DNA from: Cystobacter fuscus
GTDB lineage: Bacteria; Myxococcota; Myxococcia; Myxococcales; Myxococcaceae
Direction: 5' to 3'
NCBI RefSeq assembly: GCF_002305875.1
Contig: NZ_CP022098.1
Span: forward strand, 7,812,001 to 7,876,000
DNA length: 64,000 bases
Below, one piece after another: positions 1 through 48,141 of the stretch (positions are counted from its first letter, which is position 1; the number at the start of each line of letters is the position of its first letter). Under the pieces are notes generated by a model. That model had not been told where the DNA came from. It saw only the letters and a program-made list of their open reading frames with translations, and ran no database searches. Made by a program: the position numbers and the translations under genes.

Positions 1-21173
<21,173 letters not shown>

Positions 21174-21174
21174 G

Positions 21175-24100
21175 TCAGATCTCTTCGCTCAGCGCGGCGA
21201 GCTTCTCCGCGAGGAGCGCCTCGGCCTCTTCGTCCGAGAGTTGCTTGACGTTGTTGACGATCACGGCCTCGAGCGCCGCCGCCTCGTCCAGGGGCTGCTC
21301 GACCTTGTTCGTGATGGGAAGTTGCAGCAGCTCGGCCAGATGCCCGACGAGCGCCGCCACGGTCGGGTAGCGCCATACCAACGTCGCCGGGAGCCGCAGC
21401 CCCAGGCTGGCCTCGAGCCGATTGCGGATCTCCAGGCTCATCAGCGAGTCCAACCCCAGGTTGCCGAGCGGCTCCTGGAGATCGATCCGCGAGGGAGCCA
21501 GCCGGAGCACGTGGCCCACCTGCTCACACAGGTGGGACTCGAGCAACCGCGCTCGCTCCAACCGCTCCGCCGCCCGGAGCGTCTCCACGAAGGCCCCCCG
21601 GTTCGCCGGGCGCTCCCCGCCGCTGGCCTGCTCGCGAGCGAGCCGTGACAGGAACGGCGACTGCGCCGCCGTGAGATAGAACTCGCGCCACTGCCGCAGC
21701 TCGAAGCGCATCACCGCCACACGCGCGTGGGGACCACCGAGGAGCCGGCCCAGCGCCTCGAGGGCTTGCGCGGGCGGCATGCTGTCCACGCCACGCTGCG
21801 CGATGCGCTCGCCGCGGTTGGCCGCCGCGGCCGCGAGCCCCACCCCGGCCCAGGAACCCCAGTCGATGCTCAGCGCGGGCAACCCGAGGCCCCGCCGGTA
21901 CGATGCCAGCGCGTCGAGGAAGACGTTGGCCGCCGCGTAGTTGCCTTGTCCCGGTGAGCCCAGGAGCGCGCCCGCGGCCGCGAAGAGCACGAAGAAGTCG
22001 AGCGGTGCCGCCGCCGTCAACTCATGCAGGTTCCACGCGCCCTGGACCTTGGGCGCCATCACCGCGCGCAGGCGCTCGGAGGTGAGATTGACGAGCACGC
22101 CGTCATCGAGGACCGCCGCCGCGTGGAAGACCCCCCGGAGCGGAGGCATCCCAGCCGCCAGCTCCGCGAACACCCGCTCGAGTTCCGGCCGTGCCGCCAC
22201 GTCGGCCTTGCACACCTGGATCTCGGCACCGGCCGCGCGCAGCGCATCGAGGGTCCGCTGAGCCTCCGCGGATGCGCCTCCGCGGCCCAACAGGGCGAGG
22301 TGGCGGGCACCCCGCGAGACCAACCACTCCGCGAGCTTCAGGCCCAGGCCACCGAGCCCTCCGGTGATGAGGTAGGTGCCGTCGGCGCGAAGCTCCGCCG
22401 GGGGGGCCGTGATGCGCTCCATGCGAGACAACCGCGCCACGAACCTCGCCGGGCCCCGGAGCGCGACCTGCTCCTCCCGCGTCGACGAGAGGAGCTCGTC
22501 GGCGAGCACGCGCGCCTGGGCCTCGTCGAGCGCCCCGAGGTCCACGTTGCAGCACTGGAACTCGGAATGCTCCAGCGAGAGGACCCGTCCGAGTCCCCAG
22601 AGCGGGGCCTGCTCGACGTGGACCGCGCGCTCCGCGGGTTTCACGGCGTGGACTCCCTGCGTCACCAGCCACAGCCGGGGCATGTCACGGAAGCCCGCCG
22701 CCACCAGGGCCTGCGTGAGGTGGAGCGCGCTCCCGACCCCGAGCGACCGTGCCCGCTCCAAGGCCTCCGGCCCCTCCTCGGGCCGCGGCGCGTCGAGGCT
22801 GAAGAGATGCACGACGCCACGGCACACCGGCCGTCCGGAACCGAACTCGGCTTCGAGGATCCGCGCGAAGCCCTCCGTCCGCGACGGATCGACCACGTAG
22901 TGCCCTGGCTCGACGAGACGCGACGCAGCGCCATGGGAAACCAGGACACACGGCTCGCCGCGCTCGCGCAGCACCGCCTGCAACTTCCCGCCGAAGCCCT
23001 GATGATCCGCGAGCACGAGCCAGGCCCCGGGCGCGGACTGCGTGGAGGGCGCGAGCTCCGCGCGCGGCTCTTCCTGCCAGTCGGCCAGGTACATCCACCC
23101 GTCGATCTCATCCGAGGAGCGCCGCCGCACCGCATCCAGGCGCCGGCACATCAGGCCCCTGGCCTCCATCAGGACGCGGCCCTCCCCATCGAGCAAGGTC
23201 ACATCCGCCTCGACCGTGCCCGCCCCACCGCTCGTGCCGGACCGCACGAGGGCGTGTCCCCACAGCACACGGCCAGGCCGCCCGTGGACGCGCAGGCTCT
23301 CGACCGCCACCGGAACGAACGTCTCGCCCCGCCGATCACCCAACCCCGCCCCGTTGATGACCTGGAAGCAGGCATCCAGCAGCGCCGGGTGGACCTGATG
23401 GACCGCCAGCTCCGACGCGACCGCGGAGGGCAGCTCGAGGCGGGCGATCGCCTCCCCCGGCGCCTTCCACAGCTCCTTCAACACGCGGAAGCTCGGACCG
23501 AAGTCGACGCCCCGCTCCTGCATGAGCTGGTAGTGCGTCTCGCCGTCCATGCGCTCCGTGCACCGCCCCCGCGCCTCCTCGAGCGCGAAGGTCGCCGCCT
23601 CGGCGCCTTCACCGAGCCGTCCCTCGGCATGCAGCGTCCAGCTCCCGCCTGCTTCCGCCGGCCGGCTGAAGATCCGGAAGCGCGGCGCTCCGGTCTCGTC
23701 CCGCGTGAAGGTCATCTGCACCGCGAGGGCCTCCTCGCGGGGCAGTACCATCATCTCCTGGAAGATCACATCCTCGAGCGCGCGGCTCGCCGGTCCCAGC
23801 GCCTCCGCCGCCCCCGCGAGCGCCATCTCGAGGTACGCGGCGCCAGGGAGCACGACCTCACCCTGCACGCAATGGTCCTCGAGGTACGCCGGGCCGTCGG
23901 CGGAGAGCTCCGTCAGCCACAGGTGCGAGCCCTCCTGCCCCGCCAGCGTCAGGTGGGCACCGAGCAACGGGTGGTGCCCGGCCCGCCGGGCACGGCGCGC
24001 GCGCGGGGGCTCCTCGACCCAGAAGCGCTCGTGCTGCCACGGGTAGGTGGGCAGCACCACGCGCCGGCCGCGCACCGGATGCTGGCGCTGAAGGTCCACC

Positions 24101-26773: not shown

Positions 26774-29700
26774 TCAGCTCAGTTTCTGTGCAATCAACCG
26801 CTCGACCTCTTCGTCGGACAGCTCCGCCACCTGCGACAGGCGCTCGGCGAGATCGCCGATCTCCGCCTGCGCGGTTTGAGGCCGTGACTCCTGGGTGGCC
26901 GCCGCGGTGGGCAGAGGGATCTCCACCGCGTTGACGCTCCCGGCCAGGCGCTTCGCCAGCGCGAGGACCGTGGGGTGATCGAACGCGAGGCTCGCGGGCA
27001 GCTCCTTGTCGAGGCCCCGCTGCAGCACGTTGCGCAGCTCCACGGACATCAGCGAGGTCATGCCCATCTGGAAGAAACCCCGCTCCGTGGGCGGCAGCTC
27101 GGCGGAAGGAAACCCGAGGATCCGCCCCACCTCCCCCTGGATGCGCTGCACCAGCGTGTCGAAGCGGCGGGCCGGCGGCAGCGACTCGAGCTCCGTGAGC
27201 CACCGCGCCCGCGAGGACGTCGCGCCCGGCGTTGGCGAGGACTCGCCCACCTGTCGCAGGAAGGGCCGGCGCCGCCGTGCCTCCCAGATCGGCTTCAACG
27301 CCGACCAGTTCACGGACGCGATGGTCTTGTGGCTCACCCCCGCCCGCAGCACCTGGCCCATCGCCTCGAGCGCCCGCTTCGAGGACATGGGATTGAGTCC
27401 GAAGCGTGCGAAGTCCCGCTCGCCCTCGGCACGCGCCCCTCCGATCTCGTCCCACGTCCCCCAGTGCAGGGTGGTGGCGGGCAGTCCCATCGCCCGGCGG
27501 TGGTGCGCGAGCGCCTCGAGGAACTGGTTGCCCGCCGCGTAGTGCACGAGGCCCGAGGCGCCCCACAGGGTCGACGTCGACGAGAACATCACGAAGAAGT
27601 CGAGCTCGAGCTCGCGTGTCAGCTCGTGCAGCACCCAGGAGCCGAGCACCTTCGGGCGCAGCATCGCCGTCATCGTCGCGAGGTCCATGTCCTCCAGGTG
27701 GCACTCCGTCAGGAGCGCGGCGGCATGGATGACCCCTCGCAGCGGGGGGAGCGTCGCGGCCGTCTCACGCAGGAGCGCCGCCATCCTCGCGCGATCCGCC
27801 ACGTCGGCGGCCAGCGTGGTGACGGACGCACCGAGTGCGCGGAGCGACTCGAGCCCCTCGCGGCGCCGCGCCGAAGCCGCATCCCCCGCGTCGGAGATTC
27901 CACTCCGGCCCAGCAGCACGAGGTGCCGCGCGCCCCGCTCCACCAGCCACCGCGCCACCTTCAGGCCCAGCCCGCCCAGCCCGCCGGTGACGAGGTAGGC
28001 CGCGTCCGAGCGCAGGCGCAGCGGCTCCGCCGGCGCATCCACCCGCCCGCGGACGATGCGGGGCACGAGCGGGCGCTTCTCGCGGAACGCGAGCTGATCC
28101 TCACCATCCCCGCCGGACGCGGAGATCTCGCGAAGCACCGCGGAGTGCTCCTCGGGAGCACCGCCCGGCTCCAGGTCGATGAGGCCACCCCACACGTCCG
28201 GCTGCTCGAGGGACACGCCCCGGCCCAGGCCCCAGAGCGGCGCCTGCGCCAACGACACGCGCTCGGTCCCCGAGCCGGTGACCTGGGCGCCCCGGGTCAC
28301 CACCCAGAGCCGCGCGCGCCCGCGTGCGCCCATGAGTGCCTTCACCAGATGCAGCGCGGCCACGGAGGACTCCGGCGCCTGCCCCTGCTCGTCGAGCACC
28401 GCATCGAGGCCCCACAGGTAGAGGGCGCGGCCCTCGTGCCCGGACGCGGGTGCTGGCAGCTCGCGCAACAGGCGCTCCATGTCCTCGGGCCGCTTCGGGT
28501 CCACCACGAAGCGCCGCGCGTCCAGCCGCTGGAAGGACTCCCCCGCCGTCACGGTGACGCACGGGTGGCCCTGACGGCCAATCGCCTCCACGAGCGCCGT
28601 GCCCCACCCACCCCGATCGAGGAACACCAGCCAATCCGCGGGCCCCGGCTGGGCCGCTCCGACGGGCCTGGGCTCCCACGTCACGTCATGGAACCAGTCT
28701 TGCGAGCGCGCCTCGCCCAGCACCTCGCGCAGCCGCTCGGCCGCCACACGCCGCAGTCGCACACCGCGCGCCGCGGCCACCCGGCGGCCCTCCGCATCCA
28801 ACAACTCCAGCGTGCCCACCCGCTCCTCCGGGTGGGTGACGGGCGCGAGTGACACGTGGGCCCACTTCACGTCCGCCCGGCCCGGAACACACTCGAGCGC
28901 CTCGATGCTCAGGGGCATGAAGAGCGCGGCCCCGTCCGCCTCCGCCGCGAGCGCGAGCGCCAGGGTCTGGAGCCCCGCGTCCAGCAGGGCTGGATGGAGC
29001 TGGTAGCGCGCCGACTCCTGCACCAGCTCCGGCCCGAGCGCGACGAGCCCGAGCGCCTCGCCCGGCCGCCTCCACACCTCGCCGAGCGTCCGCAGCGGAG
29101 CCTCGTACTGGACGTCGCGGCGCTCGAGCTCCTCGTAGAGGACCGGAGCCGGCACCTGCTGCGCGCAGCGCGAGCGCACCGCGTCGAGGACCACCGAGGT
29201 GCCCGAGGGCACGCCCGCAGTCCGCAACTGGCCTCGGCAGTGCTTCACCCACCCCGCCTCGCGCGCCGCTCCGCCCGCCGCGCGGCTGTGGATGTGGAAC
29301 ACGTGCCGCCCACTGGAGCCCGGCGAGACGTGCACCTGCACGACACGCCGCTCCGCCTCCGGCAACACCAGCGCGCGCTCGAACTCCACGTCCGAGAGCT
29401 CGCGAGGCCCCGGACCCAGGGCCTCGGCCGCGGCGCTCAGCCCGAGCTCGACCAGGGCCGAGGCCGGAACCACGGCGAGGCCCGCCAGCCGGTGCGCGCC
29501 GAGCCACGGCAGGGAGGTGCTGCTCAACTCCAGCTCGAAGATCTGACCGTCGACGCCATACGCGACGCTCACGGGCCGGCCGCGCAGCGAGGTCACCTGC
29601 TCGGCGGCGGGGAGGACGGGCGACACCGCCCCGTCGAGCCAGAACCGCTTGTGCTGCCAGGGATACGTCGGCAGCGGGGCCATGCGCCCACCCTCCGGAA

Positions 29701-32359
29701 AGAGCCGGCTCCACTCCACGGGCCAGGCCGCGCGGTACAGCGTGCCGAAGGACTCCAGCATCACCGCCCGCTCGGACTCCTCACGTCGCAGGGACGGGAG
29801 CGTCATGCCCTCGCGGCCCGCGTGCTGCATGCACCGCTCGACGGCGGGCAGCAGGATCGGGTGCGGGCTCATCTCCATGAAGACCGTGTGCCCCCCCTGG
29901 ACGAGCTCGAGCACGGCCGGGGAGAACAGCACCGGATCTCGCAGGTTGCGGACCCAGTACGCGGCATCGAAGCCGGAGCCGTCGCAGGGGGTGGCGGTGA
30001 CGGTCGAGACGATGGGCACGGAGGAGGATCGCGGCCTCACCGAGGAGAGCGCGGCGAGCAACTCCGCGCGCAGCGGATCGACCTGCGGACTATGCGACGC
30101 CACGTCGACCTTCACCCAGCGGCAGAACACATTACGAGCCTCGAGCTCGCCGCGGATCTCCTCGAGCACCGGGGCATCTCCGGACAGCACCGTCGAGGTC
30201 GGGCTGTTGCTCACCGCGATCGCGACACGCTCCTCGCGCCCCAGGAGGGCCTTCTTCGCCTCCGCCAGGGACAGCTCCGTCGCCAGCATCGCGCCCTGGC
30301 CGCTGATGCGCTTGAGCAGCCGGCTCCTGAGGCAGATGATGGCCGCCGCGTCCTCCAGGCCGAGCGCGCCCGCCACGTGCGCCGCGGCGACCTCGCCCAT
30401 GCTGTGGCCCACGACGGCATTGGGCTCGATGCCCCAGGAGCGCCAGAGCGCCGAGAGTGCCACGGCCATGGCGAACAGGACCGGCTGCACGACGTCGATC
30501 TCCTGGAGCCGCGACGACTCGGACGGCGCCCGAAGCACGTCGAGCAGCCGCCACGTCACGTGGGGCCGCATGGCCTCGTCGATGCGCTCGAGAGCCTCGC
30601 GGAAGGCCGGCTCCTGCTCGAGGAGTTGCCGTCCCATTCCGAGCCACTGCGAGCCCTGGCCCGGGAACACGAAGACCACCTTTCGCCGCCCGTCCACGTC
30701 CTTCCGGGCCGGAGTGGGCCCTGCGTCGGCGAACTCCCGGAGCTTCCCGGCGACGACGGCCGGGGACTCTCCCGCGACGGCCAGACGGAACTCATGGTGC
30801 GTCCGCCGAAGCGCCGCCGTGTAGCAGACGTCCCGGAGCGACACGTCCGGCGAGGACCCGAGGTGCTCCGCGTACCTCCGGGCCAGCTCCTGGAGCGCGG
30901 AGGCAGAGCGTGCCGACAGCGGCAGCAGGTGCACACCGGGCGCGGGGGCGGCCGGCGCCACCGGAGCCGCGGGCGGCTCCTCGAGAATCACATGCGCGTT
31001 CGTCCCGCTGATGCCGAACGAGCTGACCGCGCCACGGCGCTTCCTCTCCTCGCGCGCCGGCCACGGGTGGAGGGCCGTCGGGAGGAGGATGGGCGCGCCG
31101 CCGGGATCGATCCGCGGGTTGAGCCGCTGGAAGTGCGCGAGCGGGGGGACGGCCTGGTGCCGCAGGGAGAGCACCATCTTGATGATGCCCGCGATGCCCG
31201 CGGCCGACTCGAGGTGGCCGATGTTGGTCTTCGCCGCGCCCACGACGAGCGGTTGCCCCGCGGAGCGCCCGCTGCCGTAGACCTCCTGGAGTGCCTCCAT
31301 CTCGATGGGATCCCCGAGCGAGGTCCCGGTCCCGTGCGCCTCGACACAATCGATCTCGGAGGGCTCGAGGCCCGCGCTCCCCAGCGCCTGGCGGATGAGC
31401 GCCTTCTGGGCGAGCACGTTGGGCGCGGTCAGCCCCGCCGACTTGCCGTCCTGATTGACGGCCGAGCCCCGCACGAGCGCGAGGATGGGATCCCCCGCCG
31501 CGAGCGCGTCGGACAGGCGCTTGAGGACGACGACGCCGCAGCCCTCGCCCCGCACGAAGCCGTTGGCGCGCGCATCGAAGGTCTTGCAGCGCCCATCCGG
31601 CGCCAGCGCCTGGGCCCGCGACACCCGGCTCGACGAGTGCGGCGAGAGGATGAGATTGACGCCGCACGCCAGCGCCATCGAGCACTCCTGGTTGCGCAGG
31701 CTCTGGGAGGCGAGGTGCAGCGCCACCAGCGACGACGAGCACGCGGTGTCCACCACCAGGCAGGGCCCCTGGAAGTCCAGGAGGTAGGACAGGCGCCCCG
31801 ACACCACGCAGTTGAGCGTCCCCGTCACGCTGCTCGCGTCCCGGGCGGAGGGATTGCCCATCTGCAGCAGCGCGTAGTCATCGCTGTACAGCCCCACGAA
31901 CACACCGGTGCGGCTGCCCGCCAGCCGCGTCATGTCCTGCCCGGCGTGCTCCAGCGCCTCCCACGCCACCTCGAGCAGCAGGCGCTGCTGGGGATCCATC
32001 CGGTGCGCCTCGCGCGGCGAGATGCCGAAGAAGTCCGCGTCGAACCGGTCCACCTGGTCGATGAAGGCCCCCCAGCGCGCCCCCAGCTTCTCCAGGGCCT
32101 CGGAGTCCAGCCGCGCCATGTCCTCACGGGTCCACCGCGAGGCAGGCACCTCGGTGACGGCATCCACGCCGTTGCACAGGAGGTTCCAGTACGACTCCGG
32201 ATCCGTCCCACCGCCGGGGAAGCGGCACCCCATCCCGATGATCGCCACCGGCTCCGAGCGCGCGCCCTCCGCCGCGTCGAGCCGGGACTTGAGATCCATC
32301 GCGAGGAGTGCCAACCGCTTCGGGGAGTACTGAGCGATTTTTTCGGCGAAGCTCGTCAT
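26774..32359 (-). CDS. mxaE: Type I PKS module 2 (KS-AT-DH*-KR-ACP)
   Basis: Single-module PKS, 1861 residues. Docking helix (1-30); KS with DTACSSS (Cys ~207), HGTGTS; AT with GHSMGE (Ser ~653), DVVQP and VASH: methylmalonyl. A DH-like region keeps HRLAGLAVVP (His ~956) and DAGLQ, but the glycine after the motif proline is Ala and the YGPxF motif has become YEAPL, so dehydration is probably lost. KR: GGLGGLG (~1457), Tyr ~1607 with Trp eight residues before it and no LDD, which marks an A-type KR (L-alcohol). The ACP reads GMTSL (Ser ~1769), Thr replacing the usual Asp. C-terminal tail LSDEEVERLIAQKL is a docking helix. The start overlaps the previous stop as ATGA, so translation is coupled. 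A methyl plus free alcohol output matches C12-methyl/C13-OH of myxalamid. Confidence 0.93.
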   Translation of the reverse strand: MTSFAEKIAQYSPKRLALLAMDLKSRLDAAEGARSEPVAIIGMGCRFPGGGTDPESYWNLLCNGVDAVTEVPASRWTREDMARLDSEALEKLGARWGAFIDQVDRFDADFFGISPREAHRMDPQQRLLLEVAWEALEHAGQDMTRLAGSRTGVFVGLYSDDYALLQMGNPSARDASSVTGTLNCVVSGRLSYLLDFQGPCLVVDTACSSSLVALHLASQSLRNQECSMALACGVNLILSPHSSSRVSRAQALAPDGRCKTFDARANGFVRGEGCGVVVLKRLSDALAAGDPILALVRGSAVNQDGKSAGLTAPNVLAQKALIRQALGSAGLEPSEIDCVEAHGTGTSLGDPIEMEALQEVYGSGRSAGQPLVVGAAKTNIGHLESAAGIAGIIKMVLSLRHQAVPPLAHFQRLNPRIDPGGAPILLPTALHPWPAREERKRRGAVSSFGISGTNAHVILEEPPAAPVAPAAPAPGVHLLPLSARSASALQELARRYAEHLGSSPDVSLRDVCYTAALRRTHHEFRLAVAGESPAVVAGKLREFADAGPTPARKDVDGRRKVVFVFPGQGSQWLGMGRQLLEQEPAFREALERIDEAMRPHVTWRLLDVLRAPSESSRLQEIDVVQPVLFAMAVALSALWRSWGIEPNAVVGHSMGEVAAAHVAGALGLEDAAAIICLRSRLLKRISGQGAMLATELSLAEAKKALLGREERVAIAVSNSPTSTVLSGDAPVLEEIRGELEARNVFCRWVKVDVASHSPQVDPLRAELLAALSSVRPRSSSVPIVSTVTATPCDGSGFDAAYWVRNLRDPVLFSPAVLELVQGGHTVFMEMSPHPILLPAVERCMQHAGREGMTLPSLRREESERAVMLESFGTLYRAAWPVEWSRLFPEGGRMAPLPTYPWQHKRFWLDGAVSPVLPAAEQVTSLRGRPVSVAYGVDGQIFELELSSTSLPWLGAHRLAGLAVVPASALVELGLSAAAEALGPGPRELSDVEFERALVLPEAERRVVQVHVSPGSSGRHVFHIHSRAAGGAAREAGWVKHCRGQLRTAGVPSGTSVVLDAVRSRCAQQVPAPVLYEELERRDVQYEAPLRTLGEVWRRPGEALGLVALGPELVQESARYQLHPALLDAGLQTLALALAAEADGAALFMPLSIEALECVPGRADVKWAHVSLAPVTHPEERVGTLELLDAEGRRVAAARGVRLRRVAAERLREVLGEARSQDWFHDVTWEPRPVGAAQPGPADWLVFLDRGGWGTALVEAIGRQGHPCVTVTAGESFQRLDARRFVVDPKRPEDMERLLRELPAPASGHEGRALYLWGLDAVLDEQGQAPESSVAALHLVKALMGARGRARLWVVTRGAQVTGSGTERVSLAQAPLWGLGRGVSLEQPDVWGGLIDLEPGGAPEEHSAVLREISASGGDGEDQLAFREKRPLVPRIVRGRVDAPAEPLRLRSDAAYLVTGGLGGLGLKVARWLVERGARHLVLLGRSGISDAGDAASARRREGLESLRALGASVTTLAADVADRARMAALLRETAATLPPLRGVIHAAALLTECHLEDMDLATMTAMLRPKVLGSWVLHELTRELELDFFVMFSSTSTLWGASGLVHYAAGNQFLEALAHHRRAMGLPATTLHWGTWDEIGGARAEGERDFARFGLNPMSSKRALEAMGQVLRAGVSHKTIASVNWSALKPIWEARRRRPFLRQVGESSPTPGATSSRARWLTELESLPPARRFDTLVQRIQGEVGRILGFPSAELPPTERGFFQMGMTSLMSVELRNVLQRGLDKELPASLAFDHPTVLALAKRLAGSVNAVEIPLPTAAATQESRPQTAQAEIGDLAERLSQVAELSDEEVERLIAQKLS

Positions 32360-35300
32360 TTGCCCTGCACCATCCTCTGAGCGAACAGTCGCTCGACTTC
32401 TTCTTCCGACATCTCGTCGATCTCACTGCCCAGCGCGGCCGGTGAAGGAGCCACCGCCACCGGTGAAGGAGCCACCGTGGCCCGGGGCTCACCGACCTTG
32501 TCCTCGAGTGGGAGTTCCATCTTCTCCGCCAGGTACGGAGTGAGCGCGGCGAGGGTCGGATAGGTCCAGACCAGCGTCGCGCTGAGCTTCAGGCCCAGCG
32601 CCGCCTCCAGGCGGTTGCGGATCTCCATGCTCATCAGCGAGTCGAGACCAAGGCTCCCCAGCGGGGTGCGTGGCTCGATGCGCGCCGGCTCCATCCTCAG
32701 CACTCCGCCGATCTGCTCGCGCAGGTGTTGCTCGAGCAGGGCACGGCGCTCGGAGCCGCGGATGGCCTCGAGCTGCTCGCGGATCCGGCTCCGCCCCTGC
32801 TCCACGGCGGGTCTGCCCGTCCGCTCTCGGGCCAGACGGGTGAAGAAAGGCGACTGCGCCGCGGCCAGGTAGAAGCCCAGCCACTGCCTCGGATCGAGCG
32901 CCATCACGCTCACCTGCGGGCGGCCCTGCCCCAGCAGCATGCCAAGCGCGGTGAGTGCCTTGTCCGGCGGCATCCCCCGCAGGCCACGCGCCTCGAGGCG
33001 CTCTCCGCGGTTGGCCTGCGCCGCCGCGAGGCCCACGTCCGTCCAGGTGCCCCAGTTGATGCTCAGCGCGGGCAGGCCCTCGGCCCGGCGGGTATGGGCC
33101 AGTGCATCCATGAACGCGTTGGCCGCGGAGTAGTTCGCCTGACCTGGGGTGCCCAACAGGGAGGTCGCGCTGGAGAAGAGCACGAAGAGTTCCAGCGGCA
33201 GGTGACGCGTCTGGGCGTGGAGGTTCCAGGTGCCCAGGTCCTTGGGCGCCATCACCGAGGCGAAGCGCTCCTCCGTGAGGTTGAGCAACAGACCGTCCTC
33301 GAGCAGACCCGCCGCGTGGAACACGCCGCGCAGTGGCGGCATCGCCTCGGCCACCCGGGCCAGCGCACGCGCCACGTCTCCCGGAATCGCGACATCGGCC
33401 TGGAAGGGCTCCACCCGGGCGCCCGCCTGACGGAGTTCCGCGAGCGTGCGCTCGGCCTCCGCCGAGGGGCCGCGGCGCCCCAGCACGAGCAGGTGCCGCG
33501 CCCCATGCGTGACGAGCCAGCGCGCCACCTCGAGGCCCAATCCGCCGAGCCCGCCCGTGATGAGGTAGGTGCCGTCGGCGCGGAGGAACGTCGCCGGATC
33601 CCGGGCGACCAGCGCGTCCGCCGCCCGAGAGAGCCGCGCCACGAGACGCGTACCACCGCGCCAGGCGACTTGATCCTCGAACGCCGTGGACGACAGCTCC
33701 CGGAGCAGAGCGTTGGCGCACGCGTCCACGTCTCCCTCGAGATCCACCCGTGTGCAGCCCAGCTCGGACTGCTCCAGGGCGAGCACCTGCCCCAGGCCCC
33801 AGAGCGGAGCCTGGGCCACGTTGACCCGCTCCGGCTCCTTGCCCACGGAGCGCGCGCCCCGCGTGGCCAGCCAGAGCCGGGGCGGATCCCTCCAGCCGGC
33901 CCGCGAGAGCGCCTGCACGAGGTGCAGCACACTGGTGGTACCGAGACGCCGCGCGGCCTCCAGGGTCGACGGCGTGAGCGCGTCATTCGAGGCGCAATCG
34001 AGGCTCCACAGGTGCACCACTCCGCGGCACGGGGGCGCCCCGGACCCCAGCGTGTCCCCGAGCAGCCGGCGCAGGTGCTCCACGTTCCGGGGATCCACCT
34101 CATGGCGCCCCGTGCCGGCGAGCCGGTACGTCTCTCCCGGGGAGACGAGCACGCACGTCTCCCCACGCGCCCGCAGCAACGCGGACAGCCGATGACCCAC
34201 GCCACCGCCATCGCCGAGGATCAACCAGCTCCCTGGAGAGCGCGCCGGCCACGGCGGCTCCGCCGGCAGCGGCTGCGGCTCCCAGTCCACCTGGTAGGTC
34301 CACTCGCCGAGTTCCTTGCGTACCGCGGCGCCCGCCTCGAGCCGGTAGACGCGCAGCCCCTCGAGCTCCATCAGCACCTGGCCTTGATCATCCAGGAGCC
34401 GGATGTCGAAGGAGTGCTCCCGCTCGCTCGCGGACGCCTCGCCCAGGGCCTTCACCCACACCCAGGCCGTACGCCCGGGCCGCTGGAAGAGCCGCATCCG
34501 TCCGAGCCCCACCGGCACATGGGTCCCCACCGTCGTGGGCGCCGCTTCCGGCTCGGAGACCAGCTCCACCGCGACCTGGAGGCAGGCATCCAGCAGCGAG
34601 GGATGGAGCCGATACTCCCCGCTCTCGGAGGACACCTGCGCGGGGAGCTCCAGGCGTCCCAACCCCTCGCGCGCGCTGCGCCAGAGCTGGCGCAGCGACT
34701 GGAACGCGGGGCCGTACGCGAGGCCCTGCTCCTGCCTGCGCTGGTAGTGCACCTCGGAGGAGAGCGCCACCGTCATGCGCTCGCGCGACAACCCGGGCGG
34801 CTCCACGGTGCGCGCCAGGGCCGCGCCCTCCTCCCGGCGCAGTCTCCCCGCCGCGTGCTTGCGCCAGCTCTTGTCTCCCGGGGCGCGGCTGGAGATCTGG
34901 AAGGAGGCCCGGCCCGCGCCCTCCTCGCTCACCACCACCTGCGCGAGCCGCGTCCCTCGCGGCTCGAGCGTGAGCATCTCACTGAGCGAGACGTCCTCGA
35001 GCACGAGCCCCGCCTCGCCCAGCACCTCCGCTCCCGAGGACAGGGCCATCTCCACGTACCCCGCGCCCGGGAAGACGCTCTCCCCCCACACGCGGTGATC
35101 CGCGAGGTACGGGAACGCCTCCGTGCTCAGGGCCCGTTCCCAGAAGTGGGTGCCAGGCTGCACGGACGAGGAGAGCGAAGCGCCGAGGAGAGGATGTCCC
35201 GGACCGCCCTCGCGCACGGCGCTCTCGTGCCGTGAAGCCGCCGTCTCCTCGTCCAACAGCCAGTAGCGCTCGCGTTGCCAGGGGTACATGGGCAGCGCGA

Positions 35301-38300
35301 CGACACGTCCGCCCGAGGGGTGCAGCCGCTTCCAATCGACGGAGCAACCCCGTGCGGACAGCGCCGCGAGCGACTCCAGCAGGCTTCGCCGCTCCCTCGC
35401 CTGCCGCCGCAGCGACGCGAGCGCGAGCCCATCCCGCTTCGACTCGCGCAGCGTCTCCTCGATGGGGGCGAGCAGCACGGGATGCGGGCTCACCTCGAGG
35501 AGCACGCCATGGCCATCCTCCAGGAGCCGCTCGACGGCACCATGGAACAGCACCGGCTCGCGCAGGTTGCTGACCCAGTAGGAGGGATGAAAGTCGCTCC
35601 CATCGCCCGTCCGCCCCGTCACCGTGGAGTAGATGGGCACCGCCGCGCGCACGGGAGAGAGTCCCTCGAGCGCGCGCAGGAGGTCATCCTTCAGCGGCTC
35701 CATCTGGGGGCTGTGGGAGGCGACATTCACCTTCACCCGGCGGCAGAAGATCCCCTGGCCCTCGAGCCGCCGCAGCAGTTCCTCGAGGGCAGCGGGGTCT
35801 CCGGAGAGCACCGTCGAGCGGGCGCTGTTGCTCACGCCGATGGACAGCCGCGTCTCGTAGCCGGCCAGCGCCTCGCGGGCCTGCTCCAGACCGAGTTCCA
35901 CCACGGCCATCGCCCCCTGCCCGCTCAGGCGGCGCAGGAGGAGGCTGCGGCGGCAGATGATCCTCGCCGCGTCCTCGAGGCTCAGCGCGCCGGCCACGTG
36001 TGCCGCGGCCACCTCGCCCATGCTGTGCCCCACCACCGCATCGGGCTCGACGCCCCACGAGCGCCACAGCGCCGCCAGCGCCACCTGCATCGCGAACAGC
36101 ACCGGCTGCACGACATCGATCTCATGCAGGCGCGAGCGCTGCTCATCCGCGCCAAGCTCCTGCGTGAGGGACCAGTCCACGTGGGGGCGCATCGCCCGCT
36201 CGCAGGCCTCGATCGCCGCCCGGAAGACCGGCTCCTCGCGCAAAAGCTCGCGGCCCATGCCGGGCCACTGCGACCCCTGCCCCGGGAAGACGAAAACCAC
36301 CCGGGTTCGCCCCTCGGGACCCACCCGGCCCTGGCTCAAGCCGGGACGGGCCTCGCCCCGTAAGAAGGCCTCCAGCGCCTCGGCCAGCTCCCGCCGCGAG
36401 TCGCCCACCACCGACAGGCGATGGGCATGGTGGCTGCGCCGTACTCCCGCCGTGTAGGTGATGTCCTGGAGCGTCGCCCCATCCAGCGTGCCCCCACCCA
36501 GGAAGTCACGGTAGGCCGTGGCCAGCGAGTTCAGCGCCTCGGGGCTGCGCGCCGACAGGGGCAGCACCCGCACCGGTTGCCCACCGGCGGGCTCACGCCC
36601 CCCTGCCTCCTGCCCTCCCATGAGGACCTGCTGGCCATGGACATACAGGACACCCAGCGTGTCGAGCATCACGCCCCGCTCGTCCTCCTGTCGACGGAGG
36701 GAGGGGACGACGAGCCCCTGCTGGCCGGCGTCCCGCAGGGTCGACTCGATGGAGTGCTTGACGATCGGGTGCGGACCGACCTCCAGGAAGACGCGATGCC
36801 CCTCGCCGAGCGCGTGGGAGAGCGCGCCCGTGAGGAACACGGGCTCCGCGAAGTTCTTCACCCAGTGGGCGGCATCGAAGCGCTCGCCCTCGAGCGGCGA
36901 GGCGGTGACCGTGGAGAAGATGGGGAGGCGTGCCGGGCCGGGGCGCAGTCCCCGCAGGGCCTCGGAGAGCTCGCCGCGCAGCACATCGACCTGGGGGCTG
37001 TGCACCGCCACGTCGGTCTCCACCTGGCGGCAGAACACGCCGCGGTGCCGCAGGGTGGCGAACACCTCGGCGAGCGCGCCCGGCTCACCGGACAGCACCG
37101 TCGAGTCCGCGCCCGCGTCGATGGCGCGGCACAGCCGGCCCGCGTAGCCCGTCAGGAGCTCGGCGGACTGGGCCCACGAGAGCCCCACGAGCCCCATCGC
37201 GCCCTGGCCGCGGAGCCGGCTCAGCAGGCGGCCCTGGGAGCAGATGACGCGCATGGCGTCCTCGAGGCTCAAGCTGCCCGCGACGTGTGCCGCCGAGACC
37301 TCGCCGATGCTGTGACCCACCACCGCGGCGGGTTCGATCCCCCAGGAGCGCCAGAGCGCCGCCAGCGCGATCTCCAGGGCGACGATCGCCGGAAAGGCGA
37401 CATCGATCCGATCCAGCCGCGCCGTCGCGACATCGGCGCTCAACTCGGCCAGCAGCGACCAGCCCAGGTGCTCCCGGATGAGCCGATCGCACTGCTCCAG
37501 TGAGGCCAGGAAGACCGGCTCGGTCCGCAGGAGGGTCCGCCCCATGCCAGGCCACTGCGAGCCCTGTCCCGAGAAGACGAACACCGGCCCCTGAGCGTGC
37601 TCGGACTCCACCCGCCCCGCCGACAACCCCGCCCTCGCCTCACCGCGCAGGAAGCCCGTGAGGTGCTCCCCCAGCTCCTTCCGGGAGCGGACGGTCATCG
37701 CCAGACGATGGGCGGGCCCGCCGACGGGGGCCGCGGTCGAGCGGCCGAGCTCTGACAGGGACACCTGCTCCCCGCCATCGAGGCGCTCGAGCAACCGCCG
37801 CGCCGCCCCTTGGAGGGCCTCCTGCGTCTCGCCCGAGAGGGTCACGAGCTCCGCCCGGGGCGCGCTCGCCTCCTCCACCACGACGTGACAGTTCGTGCCA
37901 CCGAAGCCGAAGGAACTGACTCCCGCGATCAGCGTCCGCTCCGGCTCGGGCCAGGGCCCGAGGGTTCGCTGGACCTCCAGACGCAGTTGCGCGAAGGGGA
38001 TGTGCGGGTTGGGCGTCTCGAAGTGGAGGCTCGGCGGGAGCGCGCGGTGCTTGATGCACAGCGCGACCTTGATCAGCCCCGCGATGCCCGCGGCCGCCTC
38101 CAGGTGCCCGATGTTGCTCTTGCAGGAGCCGATGCGCAGCGGACTGTCGGCGGGCCGCCCCGCGCCGAGCACCTCGCCCAGGGCCCTGGCCTCCATGGGA
38201 TCCCCGAGCTGCGTGCCGGTGCCATGCGCCTCGACGTACTGCACCCTGGACGGCTCGACGCCAGAGCGCGCATAGGCCAGGCGCAGCATCTCCTCCTGGG

Positions 38301-39447
38301 CCTTGGGGTTGGGCGCGGTGAGGCCGTTGCTCCCGCCGTTGTTGTTGATGACGCTGCCGCGGATGACGCAGTAGATGGGATCGCCATCCGCGATGGCCTG
38401 GGAGAGGGGCTTGAGCACGACCACGCCCGCCCCCTCGCCACGCACGTACCCGTTGGCGCGTGCGTCAAAGGAGAAGCAGCGCCCATCCGGCGAGAGGGCA
38501 CCGACCTTGGACATTCCAATCGTGCTGTCGGGCGCGAGGTTCAGGTTCACGCCGCCCGCGAGCGCGAGCGTCGACTCGCCCCTGCGCAGGCTCTCGCAGG
38601 CCAGGTGCACCGCCGCGAGCGAGGAGGAGCACGCCGTGTCGATGGCCAGGCTCGGTCCCCGGAGACCCAGCACATAGGAGACGCGGTTGGCGATGATGCT
38701 GTGGTGGAAGCCCGTCGCCGTGTGCTGGGAGATGCGCCGCACACCGAGCCGCTGCAACCGGGTCTCGTAATCCGTCCAGATCACCCCGAAGCAGACGGCC
38801 GTGGGAGAGCCCTGCAAGCGCTCCGCGGCGATCCCCGCGTCCTCCAATGCCTCCCAGGTCAGCTCCAGCATGAGCCGCTGTTGCGGATCCATGTGGAGCG
38901 CTTCCTTGGGCGAGATGCCGAAGAAGAGGGGATCGAACCCGTCCACCCGATCGAGGAATCCACCCCAGCGGGTGTTCGCCTTGCCGGCCGCGGCGAGGTC
39001 AGGATCATGGAACCGCTCGGCATCCCACCGCTCGGGGGGAACCTCCGTGATGGCATCGCGCCCTCCCGCCAGCAGGCGCCAGAACGCCTCGGGATCCGGC
39101 GCCTTGGGATAGCGGCACGCCAGGCCGACAATCGCGATGGGCTCCTCCCCCGAGTGCGCACGGGAGGGCCGCGGCGCGGGCTCCACCTGTTCTCCGGCGA
39201 GATACCGGGCCAGGGCGTCGAGGGTCGGGTACTCCCAGACAAGCGTGGGGGACAACGAGCGCCCGAGCATCGTGCCGACCTCGGCGATGAAGCCCGTGGC
39301 CTTCAGTGAGTCGAGCCCATACCGGCTGAAGCGCTCGCGCACATCGAGTGTGCGCGCGTCAATCGCCAACCGTTGAGCGAGGGCAGTGATCAGACGCGCC
39401 TGCACCTCGGCCAGCTCATTCTTCAGCAATCCATCTCGCGCCGACAC
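32356..39447 (-). CDS. mxaF: Type I PKS loading module plus module 1 (ACP-KS-AT-AT-DH-KR-ACP)
   Basis: First gene of the operon, 2363 residues; GTG start with AGGGGG four bases upstream. Order: N-terminal ACP (GLDSL, Ser 47); KS about 101-525 (DTACSSS, Cys ~273; HGTGT; GHLE); AT1 (GHSIGE, Ser ~713); AT2 (GHSMGE, Ser ~1142); DH ([10 protein letters not shown], His ~1450; YGPAF; DACLQ); KR (GGLGGLG ~1966, LED, Ser and Tyr ~2105 present, B-type); ACP (GLDSL, Ser ~2268); acidic helical tail. AT1 lacks the Arg that grips an extender carboxylate (CSQG where AT2 has CRRS) and reads VAVH, so it should load a monocarboxylic starter. AT2 has DVVQP and VASH: methylmalonyl. This tandem-AT, ACP-first layout is known from myxobacterial starter modules (myxothiazol, stigmatellin, myxalamid, soraphen lines). 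It fits loading of 2-methylbutyryl/isobutyryl and making the C14-methyl, 14E alkene. Confidence 0.93.
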
Positions 39448-47463: not shown

Positions 47464-48141
47464 GTGGACCCGACCGCCCTGCTGTTGAGCCTGCGCCTCG
47501 CGGGCTGGACGACGATGCTGCTGCTTCCGCTGGGGTTGCCCATCGCCTGGTGGCTCGCCCGTTCTCGGTGGCGGTGGAAGTTCCTGCTCGAGGCCCTGGT
47601 CGCGCTCCCGCTGGTGCTACCCCCCACGGTGCTCGGCTTCTACCTGCTGCGGGCCATGGGCCCCCGGGGTCCGCTGGGACCCGCCTTCGAGGCGCTCTCC
47701 GGACACCCCCTGCCCTTCAGCTTCGAGGGCCTGCTGCTCGCCTCGGTGCTCTCCAGCCTGCCCTTCTCCGTCCAGCCCTTCACGGCCGCGCTCGCGGGCG
47801 TGGATCCCCGCCTCATCGAGGCCTCGTGGTGCCTGGGCGTGTCCCGCGCGCGCACCTTCTTCCGGGTGGTACTGCCCCTGGCGGCCACGGGCATCCTCTC
47901 CGGCATGGTGCTCACGTTCGCGCACGCGCTGGGGGAGTTCGGCGTGGTGCTGATGGTGGGCGGCAACCTCCCGGGCCACACGCGCACGGCCTCCATCGCC
48001 ATCTACGACGCGGTGCAGGCGCTGGACTATGACGCGGCGGGGAGGATGTCGCTCGTGCTGCTCGTCGTGTCGTTCGTCGTGCTGGCCCTCACCCAGGGGC
48101 TGCGCCGTGGGAGGGAGGGCGCATGGACGCGGCGCTCCTGA
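47464..48141 (+). CDS. modB: Molybdate ABC transporter permease
   Basis: 225 residues, GTG start. Forms the membrane channel of the molybdate importer. Five or so hydrophobic helices and the ModB-characteristic loop ALGEFGVVLMVGGNLPGHT (about 158-176), which contacts the ATPase, are present. Its stop lies 19 bp inside the next gene (modC), so they are coupled. The periplasmic binding protein gene modA that usually precedes modB is missing from this locus. Confidence 0.92.
   Translation: MDPTALLLSLRLAGWTTMLLLPLGLPIAWWLARSRWRWKFLLEALVALPLVLPPTVLGFYLLRAMGPRGPLGPAFEALSGHPLPFSFEGLLLASVLSSLPFSVQPFTAALAGVDPRLIEASWCLGVSRARTFFRVVLPLAATGILSGMVLTFAHALGEFGVVLMVGGNLPGHTRTASIAIYDAVQALDYDAAGRMSLVLLVVSFVVLALTQGLRRGREGAWTRRS

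Follow-up and report, generated by a model that had tools for sequence, protein, structure and literature searches.

The ketoreductase of module 3 (KR3) in a myxalamid-type assembly line has an alanine where the catalytic serine is nearly always found. We judge it probable, at roughly three chances in four, that KR3 is an active ketoreductase of the B type and that it already worked without this serine before the divergence of the 18 clusters found to share the change. The change is common to every related cluster found, and KR3 therefore looks like an old, working variant rather than a damaged one. The window, the whole stretch of 64,000 nucleotides that was analysed (G000:C1:7812001-7876000), carries a type I polyketide synthase (PKS) line on its minus strand (Table 1). 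Acyltransferase (AT) motifs along the line are VASH in modules 1, 2, 3 and 7, YAFH or HAFH in modules 5 and 6, and VPSH in module 4. An xASH motif denotes methylmalonyl and HAFH malonyl; by these rules the motifs fit the methyl pattern of myxalamid. Seven modules in order, this AT pattern and a terminal C-A-PCP-reductase NRPS, encoded in locus L001 and adjoining the PKS line outside the window, agree with the arrangement of the myxalamid (mxa) PKS/NRPS; the VPSH of module 4 is atypical, and the likeness is one of gene content.

Reading and translation of the minus strand place Ala1594 of the module 3 protein at codon GCC (21978-21976), 13 residues before Tyr1607, a position occupied in sibling KRs by the second Ser of FSS. 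The stretch up to the tyrosine is F-A-A-A-G-A-L-L-G-S-P-G-Q-G-N-Y, within the sequence FAAAGALLGSPGQGNY. From the canonical Lys-Ser-Tyr-Asn set KR3 keeps Lys1570, Tyr1607 and Asn1611, and only the Ser 13 residues before Tyr is missing. It also keeps the NADPH loop TGGLGGLG and the LDD motif that marks B-type KRs. Loss of Tyr, Lys or the NADPH loop defines the redox-inactive C1 and C2 KRs; KR3 shows no such loss, the first residue of the loop varying in 2 of 18 orthologues. The domain covers positions 1-179 of the 180 in the Pfam KR model and scores 229.8 bits, the cut-off being 22.6. An AlphaFold2 model of the KR3 region (42 sequences) has a mean pLDDT of 78.4, and a Foldseek search with it returned EryKR1 and other PKS KRs as best matches, with 6w7s at the top (E 3.4e-25). 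The original prediction had described a serine-to-alanine change thirteen residues before Tyr1607, with Lys, Tyr and Asn retained and an apparently intact dehydratase (DH) downstream, and each of these points is borne out; DH3, whose HxxxGxxxxP motif is intact, precedes KR3 in the same module. Across the orthologues DH3 keeps its His, Pro, Asp and Gln in 18/18 and the motif Gly in 17/18.

Table 1. Features of the assembly line and of KR3, in window coordinates
Feature	Position	Strand	Basis
Module 7, KS-AT-DH-ER-KR..., runs past window edge	1..5550	-	translation; domain search
Modules 4-6, three-module protein, module 5 without detected DH	5547..21173	-	translation; domain search
Module 3 PKS protein (MxaD-like by position), KS-AT-DH-KR-ACP, 1860 aa	21175..26757	-	translation; Pfam
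KR3 domain (Pfam KR, residues 1460-1637)	21847..22380	-	PF08659, 229.8 bits
Catalytic Asn1611	21925..21927	-	18/18 orthologues
Catalytic Tyr1607	21937..21939	-	18/18 orthologues
Ala1594 codon GCC replacing catalytic Ser	21976..21978	-	Ala in 18/18 orthologues
Catalytic Lys1570	22048..22050	-	18/18 orthologues
LDD motif of B-type KRs, residues 1550-1552	22102..22110	-	translation; 18/18 orthologues
NADPH-binding motif TGGLGGLG, residues 1465-1472	22342..22365	-	sequence read; 18 orthologues
DH3 domain, active-site His at residue 962 (HCVQGEVVLP)	23125..23973	-	motif and Pfam
Module 2 protein, KS-AT-DH-KR-ACP, KR without LDD (A-type-like), DH motif intact	26774..32359	-	translation; Pfam
Loading part and module 1, ACP-KS-AT-AT-DH-KR-ACP	32356..39447	-	translation; Pfam

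Searches with the KR3 region against 96 genomes of the family and against 195 Myxococcota genomes gave the same 18 clusters, the window included. The 17 other genomes span, together with the window, four genus labels (g1, g8, g15 and g23), and their KR3 domains are 69-92% identical to that of the window; among the named loci are Archangium lansinium MIWBW (L005) and Myxococcus strain AM401 (L006). An alignment with the same KR in other mxa clusters, the check proposed with the original prediction, gives Ala at the 1594 position in 18/18, together with Lys, Tyr, Asn and LDD in all 18. The loop TGGLGGLG is invariant save for its first position (T in 16, S in one, A in one); the two exceptions are the KR3 loops of L122 and L120, where the first Thr is Ala (G088) or Ser (G110). 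The residue preceding Ala1594 is Ala in 13 orthologues (FAAAG) and Ser in five (FSAAG). By contrast, all 108 sibling KRs in these clusters carry Ser at this position (90/90 for KR1, KR2, KR4, KR5 and KR6, and 18/18 for KR7, as SS). When KR3 is set against the 90 siblings, column 1594 is the only one among the columns listed at which KR3 has one residue throughout and the siblings another. This distribution means that Ala1594 is neither chance nor error. A one-base step from a Ser codon would suffice for a sequencing or assembly error at 21976-21978, but the 17 other genomes have Ala as well, all by the synonymous codon GCG where the window has GCC, which refutes an error and leaves it practically no probability.

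In a tree of 99 chosen KRs, the KR3 domains form one clade (support 100/100), within which the five FSAAG members are sister to the 13 FAAAG members, and the distribution of Ala over the whole tree requires four changes. By parsimony, the Ala is older than the most recent ancestor shared by the 18 clusters found. Judged from these alignments, KR3 with its Ala1594 is a genuine variant of a known domain, fixed throughout the lineage, and neither an artefact nor a recent loss. The original statement that KR3 "has lost" its serine thus stands as to the absence of the residue, while the fresh defect that it implied does not agree with an Ala in 18/18 and a change older than the common ancestor.

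Over all loci read, these clusters included, the column was legible in 333 distinct KRs, of which 312 have Ser and 21 have Ala, a frequency that is a rough rate since the sample was gathered by similarity; domains with a gap at the column were dropped. A count over fewer loci, from which four such domains were dropped, gives 246 Ser and 21 Ala among 267. Loci other than those fetched for mxa clusters account for three Ala and 207 Ser, the latter possibly counting some siblings of mxa KR3 in L001, L005 and L006. Of the three Ala-KRs outside mxa KR3, one is from a Streptomyces (L072), one from a Goodfellowiella (L076) and one from an Anaerolineae MAG (L052). Lys, Tyr and Asn are kept by 21/21 Ala-KRs. 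No known natural KR lacking the serine was found in the papers searched. Two candidate replacements within the domain were tried and rejected. A change from HAAG to HAAA is not a specific compensation, as 14 of the 246 Ser-KRs share HAAA (13 of them mxa KR2 orthologues) and so does EryKR1. The neighbouring Ser at Tyr minus 14 occurs in only 5 of the 18 orthologues (FSAAG) and is absent in 13.

From the structure of myxalamid and its mass, we take C10=C11 to be the module 3 alkene. The calculated m/z for C26H41NO3 is 416.3159, and for the ketone left by an unreduced module 3 it is 432.3108. In Myxococcus xanthus DK1622, deletion of a 92-kb myxalamid region leads to loss of myxalamid A (m/z 416.31), according to PMC5559782, which also gives seven guide-RNA targets for the region, 17-4 to 17-10. 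All seven match genome G109 without mismatch. They lie on a single contig and the same strand, follow each other as numbered and span 86 kb (17-4 at 47654, 17-10 at 133599), and the KR3 of the orthologous cluster so located (88986-90104) sits between 17-6 and 17-7. Given seven exact targets out of seven flanking KR3, G109 is very probably of the species of DK1622, M. xanthus. G111, a neighbour of G109, has three of the seven exactly (17-5, 17-6 and 17-10), and the targets 17-4 and 17-9, searched in seven genomes, are exact in G109 only. KR3 of G109 (L116) reads FAAAG. If KR3 were dead and nothing replaced it, the clusters would make an 11-keto relative of myxalamid. The missing Ser is in keeping with this, and the product evidence comes from DK1622 rather than from the window's own genome. 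However, DK1622 yields myxalamid A at m/z 416.31 against 432.31 for the keto product, and Ala also stands at this position in the orthologue that very probably belongs to M. xanthus, so that we hold an 11-keto product to be very unlikely. The original prediction would have been refuted, in its own terms, by an identical Ala in orthologues that are characterised and active. At the level of the pathway such evidence now exists, through the very probable M. xanthus orthologue within the myxalamid A cluster; at the level of the domain it does not, the literature searched having yielded no assay of KR3.

The pathway could also be served if KR3 were catalytically dead and kept for structure, with a sibling KR of the same line reducing the module 3 ketone in trans. 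A trans-acting KR has been proposed for a KR-less module in lasonolide, and the absence of the serine from 18/18 orthologues accords with a dead domain. Against this, none of the 18 departs from Tyr, Lys, Asn or LDD, nor from the NADPH loop save at its first residue, and no stand-alone KR-family gene was found near the cluster. A PF08659 search at E 0.001 or better from 7,723,767 to 8,066,987 returned only the seven module KRs (150 of 177 candidates scored), and on the same 150 scored candidates the nearest other KR-family matches in the genome are at 7,723,435-7,723,767 and 8,066,987-8,067,472. A trans-acting KR would therefore most simply be a sibling module.

Constraint on the domains also argues against a dead KR3. 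Over the 18 clusters, KR3 has a dN/dS of 0.231 and a mean identity of 79.8%, compared with 0.215 and 79.2% for KR1, 0.232 and 79.3% for KR2, 0.198 and 83.4% for KR4, 0.224 and 80.5% for KR5, and 0.193 and 81.0% for KR6. Constraint on KR3 is inside the range of KR1-6, near its upper end; KR7 (0.159 and 82.9%) is more constrained than KR3. KR3 differs in this from the enoylreductase of module 7 (ER7), which has a dN/dS of 0.343 (112 pairs) and 61.5% identity over 17 clusters, one short match having been dropped. ER7 activity is presumably unneeded for myxalamid, and its poor conservation is as expected of an unused domain, which ER7 apparently is. It is a loose yardstick, since every DH domain of the line also changes more quickly than the KRs do (dN/dS 0.25-0.50; DH1 read in 16 of 18 clusters, two short matches dropped). 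Moreover, DH2 keeps its His, Gly, Pro, Asp and Gln in 17/17 read (one short match dropped) at a dN/dS of 0.28, close to the 0.25 of DH3, and yet its activity too is, we assume, unneeded for myxalamid. A motif can thus persist in a domain that the product would not need, which favours the trans reading to that extent, and constraint alone is no proof of catalysis. Taking both sides together, we consider reduction by a sibling KR unlikely. The original prediction had offered two options, a KR that works without Ser or another KR acting in trans; the pair was rightly drawn, and the evidence favours the first.

We infer that KR3 itself does the reduction, and the mechanism that follows is likewise inferred. 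In a working KR3, hydride would come from NADPH and a proton from Tyr1607, aided by Lys1570 and Asn1611 as a proton relay. The hydrogen bond that Ser normally gives to the ketone oxygen would be dispensable, or would be given by water or by the substrate. DH3 would then remove water from the product to yield the module 3 alkene. One form of a working KR3 would be assisted by its substrate: the hydroxyl made by KR2 sits delta to the ketone on which KR3 acts, and the two might be bridged by a hydrogen bond closing a six-membered ring, which would so replace Ser. By the structure of myxalamid, module 3 alone in this line has a beta-keto substrate with a delta-hydroxyl, and we assume from the same product that module 2 leaves the hydroxyl that KR3 meets. 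L076, the only Ala-KR outside mxa with a readable previous module, follows a KS-AT-KR-ACP module, which leaves a hydroxyl. This is a single outside case, however, and it is no test, since 36 of the 81 Ser-KRs with a readable previous module likewise follow a module with KR but without DH. Furthermore, the module before mxa KR3 has KR and DH in 18/18, with the DH motif intact; by domain content module 2 is thus a KR+DH module, and its hydroxyl is deduced from the product. Substrate assistance seems to us quite unlikely on this balance. We speculate further that KR3 might be a natural, ancient KR in which substrate assistance replaced Ser and which would reduce only chains correctly handled by the preceding module, acting as a proofreading gate, an idea that we regard as improbable.

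Several other features of these clusters are recorded here in their own right. The KR of module 4 (P0002, residue 1470 on) has IAD in place of LDD in 18/18 orthologues and keeps FSS. Module 5 (5547-21173) has no detected DH, yet myxalamid has a 6Z alkene, which we place at this module; a neighbouring DH may act for it. Among the orthologous clusters, ER7 is 43-73% identical to that of the window (1-5550; P0005 residues about 1459-1772), against 75-94% for KR7 of the same proteins. In the Archangium lansinium genome G060, the module 2 frame shifts inside DH2 (L139:5691-6772, matches in frames 3 and 2), which is either a genuine break or an error of assembly. One member of the FSAAG clade, G105 (L203 with L152), has an extra ACP-KS-AT-DH-ER-KR-ACP upstream of module 1 and a shorter module 1 frame (1951 vs 2388 aa); this fully reducing extra module might build a branched starter unit in place. 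In G094, G100, G102 and G104 an extra KR match lies upstream, the match being all that was seen.

Structure prediction from sequence commonly calls KRs with incomplete catalytic residues inactive, as in the lasonolide paper. The 18 clusters described here lack the serine and retain the remainder of the active site, and the known product of their pathway cannot be made without this reduction. Should KR3 prove active, the serine would be an unsafe marker of KR activity, and the mxa line would offer a natural system for asking what the serine is for.

The closest experimental parallel is the KR of mouse fatty acid synthase (FAS). According to PMC12856111, reductive elongation survives in both single mutants, S2014A and Y2027F, and is abolished only when the two changes are combined; the authors ascribe to the serine mainly the alignment of the substrate. 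S2014A is a Ser-to-Ala change at the equivalent position with the Tyr kept, as in KR3; it is, however, engineered and impaired, whereas the Ala of KR3 occurs naturally and is shared by all 18 clusters. The FAS changes were taken from a PKS KR knockout design, which shows that such changes are usually thought damaging. The B-type EryKR1 (PDB 2fr0/6w7s) is the best match to KR3 by fold and among the best by sequence, and shares its NADPH loop, Lys, Tyr, Asn and LDD, as well as HAAA before LDD, but has FSS where KR3 has FAA. The C1 and C2 KRs, a redox-inactive class according to PMC10301374 and PMC6155766, resemble KR3 in having a changed catalytic residue and differ from it in that KR3 keeps Tyr, Lys, Asn and the NADPH loop.
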